64,000 nt of DNA from Lewinellaceae bacterium SD302. GTDB taxonomy: Bacteria; Bacteroidota; Bacteroidia; Chitinophagales; Saprospiraceae. Under the pieces are notes generated by a model that saw only the letters and a list, made by a program, of their open reading frames with translations, was not told the origin of the DNA and ran no database searches. Position 1 is the stretch's first letter. Each line of letters opens with the position of its first letter. Below are positions 6,229-51,558 of the stretch, piece after piece. The stretch spans positions 62,001 to 126,000 of the forward strand of contig PDLQ01000001.1 in assembly GCA_002591745.1 (NCBI GenBank), in the 5' to 3' direction. Both the position numbers and the translations under genes were made by a program.

Positions 6229-6377
6229 GTAGTTACTGCACGGTATAAGTTGATGTTCGAATCTGGTGAAAATTGAAAGATTTGACCAGCGTTCTACCGT
6301 ACTTAGTACCATTTGAGGTGCGTAAAAGCTGCGTGTCTGGATTTTTTTGCTTTAAAATTCCGCTTTTGAACAACCGA

Positions 6378-6394
6378 CATTGCTACTTTGAAGT
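6378..6394 (+). repeat. Dispersed motif copy 2 (intergenic)
   Basis: Reads cattgctactttgaagt. Together with the seven preceding bases (from 6371) it matches the copy at 18675 over 24 bases. Confidence 0.8.
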
Positions 6395-6579
6395 AACAAA
6401 AAACAAATTTAGTTGTTTGATATTCAGTTATTTATGTTTATTTATCGTGATTTTTGTATTCACAAATAATGATTTCTGTATGCTGGTTTGGCTATGTTTT
6501 GCCCGATCATTGTAATGTCAAACGAAAGCAATTCCGGCAGATGAGCCGGTTAGATTGGAAAACACAGAGAATTCTTCGA

Positions 6580-37733: not shown

Positions 37734-37810
37734 ACTCCCGACTCTCGACTCCCGACTCCCGACTCCAGACTCCCGACTCTCGACTCTCGACTCCCGACTC
37801 TCGACTCCAG
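37734..37810. repeat. Eleven heptamer units, ACTC(C/T)CG
   Basis: Eleven consecutive 7-base units (actcccg, actctcg or actccag). They are complementary to the GGAGTCR heptads of the upstream 32-base array, so the two arrays face each other as an inverted pair. Confidence 0.9.
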
Positions 37811-44844: not shown

Positions 44845-45696
44845 CTAGTTAGGAAGCCTGAATCTGACGGGAAGGTTGTACTGAACCCTTACGATTCGGC
44901 CTTCGTGAGTGCCCGGTTTCCAGACTATGTTGTCAGCGATCATTTGACCCGCAATACGAAGGGCTTCTTCTCCGAGGCCATAACCCGGATCTTTGTAAAG
45001 AATGGCATCACTTATCGTACCGTCTCTCTCAATGATCAGACTTACTATTACCATCCCTTCGACTTCATTATTCAAGGCATCGTCTGGATAATTTAATTCT
45101 TTACGGATATAATTCTTGAGGTAAAGTTGCGAACAGTTTATTTGGTGACCTCCTGGTATCTGATCACAGTCGTTATTGTGCGGAAATTCAGGCATCTGTG
45201 ATACAACTTTATAGATCTTTTCTTCCGTTTCATAACGTTCCTTTTCTTTTGAATGCTTCATTTCAGTAAGTGGAAATTCCAAACTCTGCTGCGAGCGTAC
45301 GGTCTTTCCTTTGTATTCCCCGGGCACCCAACGAATTTCCAATTCGTTCATTCGTTCCAAGGCGGCAATGGCGGCTTCCTTGAGGCCGTTCTGCGGGTCT
45401 TCGAATATCTTCATTTCGGAGAGACTGCCATCTTTTTCTACGATGAAACTGACGGTCACTTTGCCGCGGGCCGGTTCGCCGGGGGCAGGGTGGGGGTGCT
45501 GCCAGACACTGTCGAGAAAAGCTGCCAGGGCTGTTTGGGAGCAGTCGGACCTGCTATCGGTACAAGTATCTTTATCATAAGGGAAGTAACCGTGGGTATG
45601 GCCCATCCGGTAGGGCCGTTCTTTGGGGGTATCCTGGGCGGTCAGTGGAAGAAGAAAACAACAGAGCAGGGTGAAGCAGAGAGCTTTTCTAAGCAT
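44845..45696 (-). CDS. Secreted protein with two TonB_C domains (tandem paralogue)
   Basis: 283 residues from ATG 45696. Upstream in-frame sequence precedes a clean signal peptide (ALCFTLLCCFLLPLTAQ). It shares the YRMGHTHGYFPYD segment, the double TonB_C arrangement and the ending LPVRFRLPN with the gene at 43906. The two starts also share upstream AACAAAACnATT sequence. They form a tandem duplication 78 bases apart and are probably cotranscribed. Confidence 0.88.
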   Translation of the reverse strand: MLRKALCFTLLCCFLLPLTAQDTPKERPYRMGHTHGYFPYDKDTCTDSRSDCSQTALAAFLDSVWQHPHPAPGEPARGKVTVSFIVEKDGSLSEMKIFEDPQNGLKEAAIAALERMNELEIRWVPGEYKGKTVRSQQSLEFPLTEMKHSKEKERYETEEKIYKVVSQMPEFPHNNDCDQIPGGHQINCSQLYLKNYIRKELNYPDDALNNEVEGMVIVSLIIERDGTISDAILYKDPGYGLGEEALRIAGQMIADNIVWKPGTHEGRIVRVQYNLPVRFRLPN

Positions 45697-45847
45697 AATG
45701 GTTTTGTTAATAGGTGATCCAGTAAAGATAAATAATTTCGGAAATTCAGCCCTTAATACAGCAGTTTTGCTTGCACTGAGCATCGACTTCGTGCTTCAGG
45801 ACCGGCTTCGTTGCTCGTTGCCTGGCGTAACGGTCTCGCACCATACT

Positions 45848-45866
45848 CATTGCTACTTTGATAGCC
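45848..45866 (+). repeat. Dispersed motif copy 13 (upstream of miaB)
   Basis: cattgctactttgatagcc, ~150 bases upstream of the miaB start, ~110 bases before its -7 box. Confidence 0.8.
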
Positions 45867-45977
45867 AAAAAACTATTAGTCCTCAATTAACTCCACAAGT
45901 CAGGACCAAAATATTTACTCGGTTGGCGACGATGGTAAACCTTATACTGCTACTGCCAAAAAGTCAGTTCTAAGCCG

Positions 45978-45985
45978 TACCTTTG
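45978..45985 (+). promoter_or_regulatory. -7 box of miaB
   Basis: TACCTTTG, an exact TAnnTTTG match followed by C, ending 13 bases before the ATG, so the leader is very short. Confidence 0.65.
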
Positions 45986-45998
45986 CCCGTTCAATTTA

Positions 45999-47447
45999 AT
46001 GTGCATGTACAACGATAATCCGACGCTGGAGGGAATTGACCGCAAACTGCTGGGCGAAGAGCGGCAGGGAGAGGTTTTGGAGATGGCTAACAAAGTAGCA
46101 ATGCCGGTGGAGGGAGGAAAATCCTTCTACATCGAAAGCTACGGTTGCCAGATGAATTTTTCTGATTCCGAGATCGTGGCATCCATCCTGGCCGAGGCCG
46201 GCTACGCGCCCACCCGCAATATGGAGGCAGCAGACCTGATCATGATCAACACCTGCTCCATTCGGGAGAAGGCTGAGGATACCGTACGCAAACGATTACG
46301 GGTCTTCGATAAGGTTAAAGCCAAAAGGCCCGGTACGATGGTGGGTGTACTTGGCTGTATGGCCGAGCGTCTGAAAGCCAAATTTCTGGAAGAGGAAAAA
46401 CTGGTTGACATCGTCGTAGGCCCCGATGCCTACCGTGATTTGCCCAGCCTGGTCGCCGGAGCAGAAGAGGGTGAGAAAGGTGTCAACGTATTCCTGAGCC
46501 GGGAAGAAACTTACGCCGACATCAGTCCGCTGCGTTTACAAAGTAACGGTGTTACCGCCTTCATTTCCATCATGCGCGGCTGTGATAATATGTGTTCTTT
46601 TTGCGTAGTGCCCTTTACCCGGGGGCGGGAACGTAGTCGCAATGCCTTCAGTATTGTAGCCGAAGCCGCCGACCTTTACGACAAAGGTTTCCGTGAAGTT
46701 ACCCTGTTGGGACAGAACGTAGACAGCTACAAGTGGGAGAACCCGGAAACCGGCGAACCCGTCTCCTTCGCTCAGTTGTTAACGATGGTCGCCGGTGTCC
46801 ACCCCGACCTGCGCGTCCGCTTCAGTACCAGCCACCCTAAAGATATTACTGACGATGTTCTTTACGCCATGCGTGATCATGAGAACGTCTGCAAATACAT
46901 CCACCTGCCGGTACAGAGCGGTAATTCCCGCATCCTGAAACTGATGAACCGCACCTACACCCGCGAGTGGTACAAGCAAAAGATCGACCGCATCTACGAG
47001 ATCATGCCAGACTGTGCCATCAGTTCCGACGTGATCACCGGCTTTTGCTCCGAAACCGAAGAAGAGCACCAGGAAACCCTGAGTATCATCGAGTACAGCC
47101 AATACTCTATGTCCTATATGTTCTTTTACAGCGAACGCCCCGGCACTTTGGCCGCGAAAAAGTTTGAAGACGATATTCCACTGGCCACTAAAAAACGTCG
47201 CCTTACGGAAGTCATCGAACTGCAGACCGGGATCAGCCATAAACTGAATGCCAAGGATGTCGGCAAGACTTTCCGTGTGCTTATCGAGGGTGACTCCAAG
47301 AAATCCGAACTGGACTGGAAAGGGCGGAATTCTCAGAACAAGATGATGATCTTCGCCAAAGAGGATCGTGATCTGAAGCCGGGTGATTACGTTGAAGTGA
47401 AGTGTACGGGGAGTAGTAGTGCTACTTTGCTGGGCGAGATGGTTTGA
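45999..47447 (+). CDS. miaB: tRNA-2-methylthio-N6-isopentenyladenosine synthase
   Basis: 482 residues. The UPF0004 domain carries cysteines C50, C86 and C120 for the auxiliary iron-sulfur cluster. The radical-SAM motif is CDNMCSFC (C195, C199, C202). A TRAM domain is at the C-terminus. It adds the methylthio group to i6A37 of tRNAs. Residues 1-40 precede the conserved core ([15 protein letters not shown]) as a variable extension and include KVAMP encoded by a dispersed-motif copy. A second copy encodes the C-terminal SSSATLLGE. Confidence 0.95.
46085..46103 (-). repeat. Dispersed motif copy 14 (miaB N-terminal extension)
   Basis: Plus strand ggctaacaaagtagcaatg encodes ANKVAM, in the non-conserved N-terminal extension. 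Confidence 0.8.
47418..47435 (+). repeat. Dispersed motif copy 15 (miaB C-terminus)
   Basis: agtgctactttgctgggc encodes SATLLG five residues before the end of MiaB. Confidence 0.65.
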
Positions 47448-47451
47448 TTTA

Positions 47452-48124
47452 GAAATAGGAAATAAGAGCACTACGCTTTTGGAAATAGGAGCTCGCCTAA
47501 CAGTCAAACTGTATAAGTAGTGCACCCTTATTCATAAATGCATTCTGCTTGGCCCTGTTATCAAAAACAATTGTTCAAATCTGAAAAGATGAGAAAACAT
47601 AATCACAAAAGCCTTCGGATATATCAGGAAGGAATAGAAATTACTGTGAAAATTTATCAGTTCGCCGAGTGCTTCCCTGATAAAGAAAGATACGGTTTAT
47701 GGAGTCAAATGACACGATCCGCTTCATCTATTCCAAATAATATCTCTGAAGGATCGGCTCGAACTAATCGGTCGTTCAAAAGCTATTTGAGAATTGCGCT
47801 AGGGAGTGCTTATGAATTGGACACACAACTTACTTTATGTAGCCGTTTGGGTTACGGAAATAAAGCCGAAATAGAAGAACTTCAGACTGAAGTGCAGAAA
47901 GAGCAAAAGATGATCCTGAAATTTATTGATTCGCTACCGAGCGACAAAGGTGTAAGTTTACCGATCACAATTGTTTTGTGTGTTTTGTCTTCGATGATCG
48001 GTTTACTGTTGTTTTAGCCACACAGCCGATCCTGCACCTAGGTACGCATCTCCGTTATCAACGTCAAATATGGCACACGTCCTATCCTATCTCTAAAAGC
48101 GCAGCGCTCCTATATCCTAGTTCC
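47452..48124. mobile_element. Candidate element: four-helix-bundle gene between inverted heptad repeats
   Basis: Left end 47452-47492: GAAATAGGAAATAAGA, spacer gcactacgcttttg, then GAAATAGGAGC. Right end 48081-48124 is the reverse complement of a matching series: heptads ACTAGGA TATAGGA, spacer gcgctgcgctttta, then AGATAGGATAGG. The ends are imperfect inverted repeats and the only cargo is the gene at 47589. No transposase is present. Confidence 0.5.
47589..48017 (+). CDS. Four-helix-bundle protein, 23S rRNA intervening-sequence family
   Basis: 142 residues from ATG 47589. The family core is KSLRIYQEGIEITVKIYQFAECFPDKERYGLWSQMTRSASSIPNNISEGSARTNRSFKSYLRIALGSAYELDTQL. These small helical proteins occur in 23S rRNA intervening sequences and as accessory proteins of diversity-generating retroelements, but are often stand-alone, and their function is unresolved. 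No reverse transcriptase is nearby. The C-terminal tail SLPITIVLCVLSSMIGLLLF is a hydrophobic helix, unusual for the family, and may come from read-through into the element end. Confidence 0.9.
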   Translation: MRKHNHKSLRIYQEGIEITVKIYQFAECFPDKERYGLWSQMTRSASSIPNNISEGSARTNRSFKSYLRIALGSAYELDTQLTLCSRLGYGNKAEIEELQTEVQKEQKMILKFIDSLPSDKGVSLPITIVLCVLSSMIGLLLF

Positions 48125-48130
48125 GAATTC

Positions 48131-49531
48131 ATGCCCAACCTCACCCAAGTAAAACGCCGCTACAACATCATCGGTCGCTCGCCCGCTCTCGAAAGGGCGT
48201 TGCAAACCGCCGTTCGCGTAGCCAATACCGATCTTTCAATTCTCATTACCGGTGAAAGCGGGGTGGGTAAGGAAGTTTTTTCCCGTATCATTCACGATAA
48301 CAGCAGCCGTAAACACGAGGGCTTTATCGCCATCAACTGCGGGGCGCTGCCGGAAGGAACGATCAACTCAGAGCTCTTCGGTCACCTGAAGGGGGCCTTC
48401 ACCAGCGCGGGTAGCGACCGGAAAGGCTACTTCGAAACCTATGATGGCGGAACCATCTTCCTGGATGAGATCGGGGAGATGCCCTTGGAAACCCAGGCTT
48501 ACTTGTTGCGGATTTTGGAAAGTGGCGAATTTATTCGCGTAGGTGCCTCGGCCGTGCAACGGACGGATGTTCGGGTGGTAGCCGCCACCAATCGTAACCT
48601 GATGGATCGGGTACGGGAAGGTAAGTTTCGCGAAGATCTGTACTGGCGGCTGGCCACTGTGCCTATTGAGTTGCCGGCTTTACGGGAAAGACCCGAAGAT
48701 ATTTACTTGCTCTTTCGCTTCTTTGCCAACGATTTCGCTGAAAAGCAAGATATTGACCCCATTGAAATCGATGAAGAAGCTCGCTGGTTGCTGGAGCATT
48801 ATCACTGGCCCGGCAATATCCGCGAACTTAAAAACGTGGCCGAACAACTCAGTATCCTGGCCGAGAAGCGAGAATTGACGGCTCTGGACCTGACCGAGAT
48901 GATGCCCCGGGTCACTCAGCGTCACCTGCCTGCCAAAACGGGGGCGGATGCCGCTGGAAATGGAAGTGGACAGTCTTTTCAGGAAAGAGAAATTCTCTAC
49001 AAGGTCCTCTTCGATATGAAGGCCGACCTGAACGAAATGAAGGGGCTTATCTTCGAACTCATCCGCAACAACGACCTGCGGGTTCCGGATATGCAAAGGA
49101 TCAAAGCTCTGCAATTACCCGGTGAGTTTCCCGCCGCCGCTGCGGAGATCGACCGTTATGCCCCAGGTGGGCGAACGCCCGCACCCAGCCCGCGCTTCGA
49201 TGACGATGACCTTTCCTTCCACCGAGAAAAAGATGCAGGATTCGGACTTCAAAGTAGCAGTGATTACTACCCGAAATCCAAGCCCGACGCTAACGGACCA
49301 CTGGATATAGATCTCTCCGAAGAACAGGGGCCGGTTATCGTCAACCGGGAAATGCGGGAAGCCTATGATCGCAGCGAAGTAGTGGAAGAAAACCTGAGCC
49401 TGGCCGCCAACGAACGCGAATTGATCAAAAAAGCCCTCAAAAAGCACGACGACCGGAGAAAGGAAGCCGCTGCGGAGCTGGGCATTTCGGAGCGGACGCT
49501 TTACCGGAAGATCAAGGAGTATGAATTGTAG
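48131..49531 (+). CDS. Sigma-54-dependent transcriptional activator without sensor domain
   Basis: 466 residues from ATG 48131. The AAA+ domain starts almost at the N-terminus: Walker A GESGVGKE (41-48), GAFTSA (88-93) in place of GAFTGA, Walker B TIFLDEIGE (~108-116), R-finger region LYWRLATVPIELPALRERPED. The C-terminal Fis-type HTH is DDRRKEAAAELGISERTLYRKIKEYEL. No receiver or GAF/PAS domain is present. A long low-complexity linker (~310-420) separates AAA+ and HTH. It probably activates sigma-54 promoters constitutively or through a partner. Targets unknown. Confidence 0.92.
   Translation: MPNLTQVKRRYNIIGRSPALERALQTAVRVANTDLSILITGESGVGKEVFSRIIHDNSSRKHEGFIAINCGALPEGTINSELFGHLKGAFTSAGSDRKGYFETYDGGTIFLDEIGEMPLETQAYLLRILESGEFIRVGASAVQRTDVRVVAATNRNLMDRVREGKFREDLYWRLATVPIELPALRERPEDIYLLFRFFANDFAEKQDIDPIEIDEEARWLLEHYHWPGNIRELKNVAEQLSILAEKRELTALDLTEMMPRVTQRHLPAKTGADAAGNGSGQSFQEREILYKVLFDMKADLNEMKGLIFELIRNNDLRVPDMQRIKALQLPGEFPAAAAEIDRYAPGGRTPAPSPRFDDDDLSFHREKDAGFGLQSSSDYYPKSKPDANGPLDIDLSEEQGPVIVNREMREAYDRSEVVEENLSLAANERELIKKALKKHDDRRKEAAAELGISERTLYRKIKEYEL
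49245..49262 (-). repeat. Dispersed motif copy 16 (inside activator linker)
   Basis: Plus strand gacttcaaagtagcagtg encodes LQSSSD in the low-complexity linker of the activator. Confidence 0.7.
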
Positions 49532-49559
49532 TACGCTGCGCGTTGGTAACCTTTGGCTT

Positions 49560-49578
49560 AGTATCGCTGCGCGTTAGT
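49560..49578. repeat. Solo copy of the atcgctgcgc spacer
   Basis: agtatcgctgcgcgttagt shares its first 13 bases and its TTAGT end with the spacer of the 32-base units at 37595. It lies just after the activator gene. Confidence 0.5.
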
Positions 49579-49623
49579 GCGGCTGCGCCGTTTTTTCGCA
49601 TTGCGTCAGGATAACTCTTTATG

Positions 49624-51558
49624 TCAGGGGACCAGGGTAACGGCTCCGCTTTTCATCAAATCTTCCCCATAAATATTGGTGTACCGAAGGATGTAGACAT
49701 AGACACCGGCTACTACTTTACGACCACCGGCCCGGCCATCCCAGCTGGCAGTAGGGCCGCTTTCCTGGTACATGAGGCCGCCGTAGCGATCATAAATCTC
49801 CAGTTCGGTAATGGTGAAAAAGTTTCCGTAGGCTCTAAATTCGTCGTTGACTCCGTCGAAGTTCGGGGAGAAAGCGGTTGGAAGATAAAATTGGGCATCC
49901 TGACGGGCCACCTCAATATTGTAGAGTAAACTATCGCTGCAGGCACCGTTGCTGGCCGTAAGTTGAATGCTGCCACTTAAGAGCGGATCTACGCGGATTG
50001 TAGAGCAAGTCGTGCAATTTAAATCGAGTTCTCCACTGAGGACTTGCCAGTGATATTGTCGGGCGTTGAAACCGGCGGGGAGGGTGAGTAACTCGCCTAC
50101 GTTCGCACTGTAATTTTGTGGGGCTATCAGTGGGGTTGGAAATGACTCAACCACCAGATCGGTGAGGGTCAGCGTGTCTGCATTCAAATTGCCATTAACG
50201 ATAAAGATAAGTTCGTAACTACCAGGGTCGTTGGGGCAAAATTCGAAATTCTCCGTATCGGACGGTAGGGTTTCCAGGTTGCCGGGGGTGCCGAACTGGA
50301 TAGAACCGGAAAAATTTCTGCTGTCGTTGGTCAGTCGGAAGCATTCACCCTGGCAGATCGTGGGCCTTGCTACTTTGAAGTCCGCCACCGCTAAATCCAA
50401 TACTTCGATGTTGTAGCTGCAAGTGTCTGGGCAAAATCCATCGATGGAAATTGTAGCAATCAATTCGGCCGAACTGGTGCCGGTGAAAACGGGCGAGGGA
50501 CAATCGAGGCAGCTTAAACCAGGGTGGGGCGACCAGTCGATCGTCCAATCCAGTGAGTTGTCGCAGATTTCGAGGGGTAGTTCATCTCCACTAAGGATTT
50601 GAAAATTTTGGGTGGCCGTATTAATTGTTGGGTTGGGAAGTACAACGATCGCCTCCGGCCAGTTGCGGCTGTAGGTGCCGTGGCAATGCTCAGCACTGAG
50701 TCCGATCGGATAAACGCCTGGGGTGTCGTAACAGACGGTCACTACGGAATCGGTGGAGCTGCCCAAATTTGAACCCGGTAAGTCCCAAGAAAAAGATCCC
50801 GGTACGCGGCTGTGACTGGACGAAAGCGTAAGGCATTCCCCGGCGCAAATGGTGTCCCGCTCCGGAGTAATGACCAGGCTAAGGGTGTCGGGGACCTCTA
50901 CTAGGTAGAAAGCGTCGTAGGAGTAATTCCGCCAGACCGCGTAATCGGTCACAACTTCTTCAATGGGCCGGAAAACGCCAAAGACCGCCGCGGAATAATT
51001 TTGGTCCGGTGTGTAACAAAACGAGAGCTTCTTCCAAAAACCTCTGGCGTGTACGACCGTGTCGATTTCAAGTTGCGGCTCAACTAGGATCGGGTACATA
51101 TCAAATGTTTGCGGATTGACTGCATCCAATACAATTTCGTTGGAGAAGTAAACCCCGAGGTGAGAAACGGCCGCGTCGAATTCGTTTTTCTGGCGAACGT
51201 AGTATTCTAAATAATAATTACGGTTTTCGTAGATCGAGTCGATTAATGCTACTTGGGGATATTCTCTTCGCTGGCCACCCGAATCATCGGGGATGTCAGT
51301 GAGTATAGTATTGGCGGTAATGTATCCTTTGCCATTGTATGGTGGGTGAAAAAGGTTGTCACAATCTTCGTTGACGTAATCGGCAGTGGCGACTCTGGCG
51401 GACCAACCCGGTAAAATATCTTGTAACAGATCGAATTGTATCTCATAGCCACAGCCGTAATATTCCTCAAAGTCCGGATTGGGGATGAGATTTTGTTGAG
51501 CATACGATGGATTCAAAAATGCGCAACTTGCAAAGAGGGTAAGGTAAATTAGTCGCAT
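49624..51558 (-). CDS. Secreted protein with gliding-motility-type C-terminal domain (T9SS type B)
   Basis: 644 residues with signal peptide ending NPSYAQ. Residues ~20-220 form a carbohydrate-binding/discoidin-like N-terminal region (NLIPNPDFEEYYGC...). Two PKD/Ig-like segments follow (~230-400). The C-terminal ~90 residues (FYLPTAFSPNFDGVNDEFRAYGNFFTITELEIYDRYGGLMYQE...GVYVYILRYTNIYGE) are the gliding-motility-associated CHU_C domain, a type B T9SS signal. It is probably an extracellular adhesin. A motif copy encodes FKVARP. Confidence 0.92.
   Translation of the reverse strand: MRLIYLTLFASCAFLNPSYAQQNLIPNPDFEEYYGCGYEIQFDLLQDILPGWSARVATADYVNEDCDNLFHPPYNGKGYITANTILTDIPDDSGGQRREYPQVALIDSIYENRNYYLEYYVRQKNEFDAAVSHLGVYFSNEIVLDAVNPQTFDMYPILVEPQLEIDTVVHARGFWKKLSFCYTPDQNYSAAVFGVFRPIEEVVTDYAVWRNYSYDAFYLVEVPDTLSLVITPERDTICAGECLTLSSSHSRVPGSFSWDLPGSNLGSSTDSVVTVCYDTPGVYPIGLSAEHCHGTYSRNWPEAIVVLPNPTINTATQNFQILSGDELPLEICDNSLDWTIDWSPHPGLSCLDCPSPVFTGTSSAELIATISIDGFCPDTCSYNIEVLDLAVADFKVARPTICQGECFRLTNDSRNFSGSIQFGTPGNLETLPSDTENFEFCPNDPGSYELIFIVNGNLNADTLTLTDLVVESFPTPLIAPQNYSANVGELLTLPAGFNARQYHWQVLSGELDLNCTTCSTIRVDPLLSGSIQLTASNGACSDSLLYNIEVARQDAQFYLPTAFSPNFDGVNDEFRAYGNFFTITELEIYDRYGGLMYQESGPTASWDGRAGGRKVVAGVYVYILRYTNIYGEDLMKSGAVTLVP
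50365..50382 (+). repeat. Dispersed motif copy 17 (inside secreted protein)
   Basis: ccttgctactttgaagtc. The minus-strand gene reads it as DFKVAR in a linker between domains. Confidence 0.75.

Follow-up and report, generated by a model that had tools for sequence, protein, structure and literature searches.

Four kinds of described system come closest to the locus analysed here: rRNA IVSs, RAYT/REP systems, intergenic heptamer arrays and the Avd proteins of diversity-generating retroelements. The IVS of the Coxiella 23S rRNA lies in helix 45 and has tandem GACAGAT heptamers by its S23p ORF. RNase III cuts this IVS in vitro; the same paper gives S23p as a homopentamer and calls the origin and function of rRNA IVSs and S23p ORFs unclear (PMC4990558). 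RAYT genes, as described in PMC2817692, are flanked by two inverted cognate REPs, and many gene-less repeats are present in the same genomes. Intergenic heptamer arrays include (i) GGGAATC of Xanthomonas (in inverted pairs), (ii) GGGGA(T/C)T of Nostoc and (iii) TAACTGA of Beggiatoaceae, and many bacterial genomes contain an excess of 7-nt repeats (PMC4692102, PMC4679880). The main texts of these two reports contain no occurrence of S23 or four-helix proteins, and XCC0516 is absent from the main text of the Xanthomonas repeat paper. A limited survey of the literature yielded no link between S23p/IVP proteins and heptad arrays beyond the remark on the Coxiella IVS.

The window (the whole stretch of 64,000 nucleotides of Lewinellaceae bacterium SD302 that was analysed) contains an S23p gene enclosed by inverted heptad arrays (Table 1). 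It is located between a miaB-type gene ending at 47447 (UPF0004, Radical SAM and TRAM domains in Pfam) and a sigma-54 activator gene starting from the ATG at 48131 (Sigma54_activat, E 2e-65). Gene names checked with Pfam are miaB-type, sigma-54 activator, MraY, MurD and SRP54, while miaB, fadB, metH, rluA and ffh are the names that we presume for neighbours of IVP genes. A sequence-only reading had described degenerate GAAATAG-like heptads with a GCxCTxCGCTTTT spacer, inverted at the two ends of a tract at 47452-48124. Both arms were confirmed and the tract was placed rightly, each end being about 5 nt short of the extent found here (47447-48128). The spacer is present in both arms and reads, in the reverse complement of the right one, GAGCGCTGCGCTTTTAG. 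No longer inverted pair than these arms (44 nt, 80% complementary) is listed for 47000-48600, and their score of 21.5 was equalled by none of the 36 control pairs.

Table 1. Coordinates of the features of the element and of one gene-less array in the window.
Feature	Position	Strand	Description
Left arm	47447..47490	+	degenerate GAAATAG-type heptads with spacer GAGCACTACGCTTTT
IVP/S23p gene	47589..48017	+	142 aa from ATG 47589
Right arm	48085..48128	-	inverted copy of the left arm
Gene-less heptad array	37734..37807	-	ACTCCCG (other strand AGTCGGG-like); unit that of the arms of IVP gene L011 of the same genome

The sole enclosed gene is, as the same reading had proposed, of the 23S-IVS type with a predicted four-helix bundle: it matches PF05635 (23S_rRNA_IVP/S23p) only, with an E-value of 5e-31 and the domain at nucleotides 47607-47915. 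The program-listed ORF is longer at its 5' end (47538-48017, ATG 47538, 159 aa). By eye, the protein has a hydrophobic C-terminal tail encoded from about 47958 to 48014, and the IVP protein of locus L009 of the same genome also has a hydrophobic, membrane-like tail (about 1860-1915). No known nuclease or transposase domain was found inside the cassette, and no Rfam match at E≤1 was obtained within 45000-50000, which places the element outside a 23S rRNA gene. The S23p family and the terminal inverted repeats are shared with the 23S rRNA IVSs of Leptospira, Coxiella and Azospirillum (locus L293, see below), but the latter are inside rRNA, whereas the window element has another unit and lies between two protein genes, so that its IVP gene would be read in mRNA and an IVS gene in rRNA. 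Similarly to a RAYT, the window gene is flanked by two inverted cognate repeats, with gene-less repeats elsewhere in the genome. It differs in that a RAYT is a Y1 transposase, while the window protein is a four-helix bundle with no Y1/HUH domain match, and in that a REP is a palindrome with a GT(A/G)G head, while the window repeat is a tandem array of 7/8-mers. The reading favoured here, which we hold with about even confidence, takes the tract as an element of IVS type that lies outside rRNA, composed of an S23p gene and its cognate 7-8-nt inverted arrays and behaving in a RAYT/REP-like manner.

The AlphaFold2 model of the window protein is a confident four-helix bundle (pLDDT 95). Its nearest folds are 2gsc (XCC0516; best TM 0.95) and 2rld (0.85-0.88), structures of five chains each, followed by Avd (0.80-0.81; 4dwl 0.81) and chain 8ub7_E of a DGR ribonucleoprotein (0.83); in the matches to 4dwl and 8ub7 the sequence identity is 11-12%. 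Despite this likeness of fold, Avd works with a reverse transcriptase, whereas the source genome (G000) has no match to PF00078 (RVT_1) at E≤0.001; such matches are found in 81 of the 150 family genomes. A reverse transcriptase as a requirement was rejected because several IVP-rich genomes are listed with no RVT_1 match, i.e. G000 itself, with seven IVP genes, and also G029, G012, G024, G015 and G035. In another genome, the nine RVT_1 matches of contig G125:C1 have nearly the same score and may be copies of a single retroelement. The seven PF05635 genes of G000 share 22-58% identity, and there are no near-identical genes among them. One IVP query against 50,697 phage records gave no match.

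Flanks of IVP genes were compared by scoring the upstream flank against the reverse-complemented downstream flank, with a threshold of 15. The 95% control level was 15.0 in the 37-locus and 75-locus tests and 16.75 in the plasmid test. Among 37 loci (7 from the source genome and 30 from the same family), 30 scored at least 15; the control pairs here include related loci (95% level 15.0, 99% level 84.5, maximum 188.5). The second set comprised 75 loci of a GTDB scan, i.e. the best 80 of 580 relatives, picked by similarity, without the duplicates L059, L073 and L107 and the short-flank loci L080 and L084; the 95% level was exceeded in 52 and the 99% level in 23 (1500 control pairs). The third consisted of 20 loci from 29 plasmid records, including two near-copy pairs, of which 17 exceeded the 95% level and 10 the 99% level (376 control pairs); loci L292-L298 were scored in this test only. 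In the pooled set, from which the same five loci and the near-copies L206 and L208 were removed, 97 of 123 loci scored at least 15, where chance alone would give about 6 at the 95% level. The best period of the arms (n = 95 loci) was 7 in 66, 8 in 25, 9 in 2 and another in 2, and an aligned arm has a median of 4.9 units. The Xanthomonas, Nostoc and Beggiatoaceae heptamers, as far as their published description allows the likeness to be drawn, are 7-nt arrays like these arms.

The 26 loci below the threshold include L011, L014, L061 and L116, which still show short arrays. No inverted pair was present at L062, L044 and L204, the last two having an array on one side only. By eye, all seven IVP genes of the source genome have flanking inverted arrays, two of which (L011 and L014) the score test misses, and each is built of another word: GAGATTG, GAAATAG, AGTCGGG, a TGGACGC/TTCGCTT mix, TTAGTATGCTCG, GTAAGACC and AATGATCT. 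The expectation that other four-helix-bundle genes carry the same heptad ends therefore held for most of those tested as regards heptad or octad ends, while the word itself varies between copies. Arms were found in many Bacteroidota, in Gastranaerophilales, Cyanobacteria, Brachyspira (L135), Desulfobacteraceae (L118), Gemmatimonadota (L292) and Azospirillum (L293); the MAG records L067 and L089 may contain foreign contigs. Such an arrangement around IVP genes of several phyla hints at a family of genome insertions that has drawn little notice. The pattern is wider than the sequence-only reading noted, and the candidate new element class that it proposed is not wholly new, since the 23S rRNA IVS has the same architecture. 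As a separate observation, L011-L014 (a subgroup of four IVP genes of the source genome) have by eye a common upstream palindrome of the TTTAAACG...CGTTTAAA type, perhaps an operator.

The relation between unit and protein was analysed without the 26 loci that scored below 15. Among pairs that are not syntenic, the more alike the proteins, the more similar are the units (Mantel r 0.135, 0/1000 permutations): the unit was shared in 3/3 pairs of at least 70% identity, in 12% of the 65 pairs at 60-70% and in 0-3% in the bins below 60%. For example, the proteins of L200 and L202 are 73% identical, and both loci have a TTAGCT unit in unlike gene contexts. As sharing is confined mostly to close proteins, the word turns over fast, with the left and right arms still matched. 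When read inward, the arms contain 2125 G and 635 C, with G exceeding C in 92 of the 97 loci.

Of the 83 loci in which mirrored unit order could be tested, 19 show it at p<0.05 (about 4 expected) and 5 at p<0.01, with a median p of 0.18; the remaining 64 loci were not significant, which supports strict pairing in part only. Four chosen gene-less hairpins form strong stems (z -7.5 to -11.9). Together, the mirrored order and the strong stems suggest copying between arms or selection for pairing. An alternative is an element acting at the RNA level, whose arms pair in the transcript, where RNase III would cut the stem and so excise or separate the IVP gene, as in 23S IVSs, the protein being autoregulatory or idle. 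We rate this alternative as possible, though unlikely. It is in line with the mirrored order and the strong stems, with the pairing of the window arms when the transcript is folded (z -3.7 against 20 shuffles), with the location of IVP genes between co-directional operon genes and with the cutting of the Coxiella IVS by RNase III in vitro (PMC4990558); however, it is at odds with the large share of loci lacking significant mirrored order and leaves unexplained both the dispersal of units and the lower number of arrays in the sampled IVP-free genomes. An RNA-processing role is compatible with the RAYT-like reading, perhaps as the older function.

That dispersal was seen with the left arm as a query, which matched the genome at 18 other places with E≤0.1, including 14 with E<1e-4, two of the 18 being second arms of copies already counted. 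An alignment that leaves out L023 and L027 shows 14 gene-less copies extending along about 185 bp, non-repeat core included, and the likeness of the left arm to them reaches about 47508. Among the 21 genomes of the genus, window-arm matches are listed for G000 only, a statement that covers the scored part of the first-look candidates. These gene-less copies are the multiplied, plainly non-autonomous ones. They share terminal inverted repeats, and the genome has one weak match to a Y1 transposase (28.9 bits), as might be expected of an ordinary MITE moved by an unrelated host transposase with the IVP gene as cargo. This explanation is nevertheless highly improbable, as no target duplication was seen by eye in the 14 aligned copies, whose ends are degenerate, and as the ends of each IVP locus of this genome have a sequence of their own, which makes it hard to see how a single transposase could recognize them all by sequence.

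Arrays were also searched for irrespective of the window unit. In 864 kb of the source genome, 16 arrays of period 7/8 were found at score 12, compared with 0-2 at any other single period in the range 5-13, and a trinucleotide shuffle of this genome gave no arrays of periods 5-15 at score 18. With a lower threshold, an inverted mate was located at most 1 kb downstream in 6 of 19 period-7/8 arrays vs none of 12 control-period arrays. Twelve of the 16 gene-less arrays match the IVP flanks of their own genome better than 95% of 7-locus draws (taken from 30 loci of other genomes), and four do not match its IVP arms. Counting both arms of a pair as two arrays, 40 period-7/8 arrays were present in 1264 kb of three IVP-bearing genomes (per Mb: G000, 18.5; G125, 80, where 3 of 16 arrays look like trinucleotide-type coding repeats; G062, 40), whereas 15 IVP-free genomes, sampled over 985 kb, had 7. 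These seven are distributed as follows: none in 400 kb of G127, one in 326 kb of G043, G025, G021 and G078 together, and six in 259 kb of ten further genomes, four of which share a 6.5-kb contig of G092. This contig (L288, from a genome without a PF05635 match) has four heptad arrays at 129-184, 827-1089 and 6364-6397, and the ORFs between the first arrays are not IVP-like by eye.

These counts bear on a passive process in which inverted 7/8-nt arrays would arise anywhere through polymerase slippage and fold-back copying, with IVP genes as passengers. Gene-less hairpins are indeed mirrored, arrays occur in 4 of the 15 IVP-free genomes, and heptamers are the commonest 5-11-nt repeat class in most of the genomes surveyed in PMC4679880, where slippage is proposed. 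We consider such a process very improbable in the light of the scarcity of arrays in IVP-free genomes, the matching of arrays to the units of their own genome and the rarity of periods 5, 6 and 10-13 in every sample. The RAYT-like reading would have the S23p protein as a trans-acting partner of the unit arrays, with gene-less inverted pairs of the cognate unit spreading in the genome and the protein gene seldom moving; RAYTs, too, rarely copy themselves.

Comparison of congeners supported the suggestion of empty sites at the miaB-activator junction. The stretch between the matched flanks has 109-337 nt in all 20 congeners vs 737-804 nt in the window. Nineteen junctions were read, and different inverted arrays occur in four of them, namely (i) G156 (L154), with a decayed IVP gene and another repeat unit, and (ii-iv) G164, G116 and G165 (L142, L144 and L146), with gene-less inverted arrays of still other units. 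The G162 junction (L147) has palindromic segments, and the remaining ones read are without clear arrays by eye. The mraY-murD junction (L009) could be assessed in 17 of 20 congeners, those in which both flanks were located, and is 460-593 nt shorter in every one of them. At the ffh site (L013) only one flank was matched in congeners, and G157 also has an IVP gene beside ffh.

In a tree of 122 proteins, based on few columns and with many open forks, many genes group by host junction. All 11 met rows fall into one clade (97/98), which also takes in three rows without a label. Fifteen of the 16 pan rows cluster in a single clade, one change suffices for the 7 gro rows (77/76), and 14 of the fad rows (32 in total) make up a 100/100 clade, all but one of them from Flavobacteriaceae or unplaced Bacteroidota; the fad rows as a whole need four changes. 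L031 (pan) and L046 (fad) were labelled by weak neighbours only. Flanks of the conserved clusters are enoyl-CoA hydratase/thiolase, Cpn10/Cpn60, panB and metH-type genes, and a location of these IVP genes inside rRNA was dismissed, as Rfam found nothing in 20 loci. Taken together with the 22-58% identity within the source genome, this grouping indicates that most copies of the gene are old, whereas those without a gene seem to be younger, as with RAYTs and REPs.

The same grouping, together with the alike units within junction groups (TGTATAAT, GATTNTTN), would be expected of a domesticated operon regulator, in which S23p and its arrays are selected at fadB|fadA, groES|groEL, panB|rluA-like and metH junctions. 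The 80 loci of the GTDB scan were chosen by similarity, which favours orthologues. A regulator appears improbable to us, as the congener junctions are short at both sites of the source genome that could be judged, IVP genes are present on plasmids and inside cas and rRNA operons, and the host genes are mutually unrelated, the fad rows requiring several changes. For the notion of a non-autonomous mobile cassette, the outcome is divided: the inverted arms and the short junctions agree with it, while the divergence of the genes within the genome and their often vertical maintenance do not. Neither a target duplication nor a catalytic gene was found, which likewise does not fit a simple mobile cassette. 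An apparent recent transposition between L205 and L206 was discarded, since it is one duplicated 2.7-kb plasmid region (97%).

An insertion into rRNA was encountered on plasmid AZO_p2 of Azospirillum lipoferum 4B. Locus L293 lies inside a 23S rRNA gene (Rfam LSU, 2109 bits) and combines an open PF05635 frame (E 1.9e-32) with arms of ACGGATG/ACAGAGG-type heptads (score 23.5, reached by none of 19 controls). Other 23S copies, on AZO_p3 of the same strain (L299) and in strain B510 (L300), have a short hairpin instead of the element, at a site which we take to be helix 45. No target duplication is visible at this rRNA site, and the element occupies the place of the hairpin. With these arms and the Coxiella heptamers, rRNA IVSs seem to represent a single niche of a more widespread element.

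The favoured RAYT-like reading may be extended to a mechanism, the steps of which we infer. An S23p pentamer would grip a single-stranded G-rich array, one unit per subunit, as the median of 4.9 units per arm suggests; TRAP offers a comparison. Both arms would fold back into a hairpin, and the element may exchange with, or land on, other hairpins, such as the terminal stem-loop of rRNA helix 45 or intergenic stem-loops. Fold-back copying between the arms could keep left and right matched while the word drifts, and cutting of the stem in transcripts by RNase III might make insertion in operons and rRNA tolerable. In its broadest form, which we put forward tentatively and think rather less probable than not to hold, S23p/IVP proteins maintain and spread 7/8-nt inverted arrays across phyla as a nuclease-less, reverse transcriptase-independent class that swaps hairpin for hairpin, and this would explain both the origin of 23S IVSs and the excess of intergenic heptamers. 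Two questions, the nature of rRNA IVSs with their S23p ORFs and the excess of 7-nt repeats, would thereby merge into one testable claim, and a common family, whose annotations go no further than 'four helix bundle protein' or 'S23 ribosomal protein', would gain a specific candidate ligand, readable from the flanks copy by copy.

Several plasmid loci have unusual gene contexts. IVP genes are found within CRISPR operons on plasmids of Pseudanabaena, Anabaena and Picosynechococcus (L202, L210 and L297), twice between cas6 and cas4, with different units, and once between cas10 and a Cmr3-type gene. On plasmid pNe_5 of Nostoc edaphicum (L201), an IVP gene with AGTAGGG arms is located between two ribonucleotide reductase genes.
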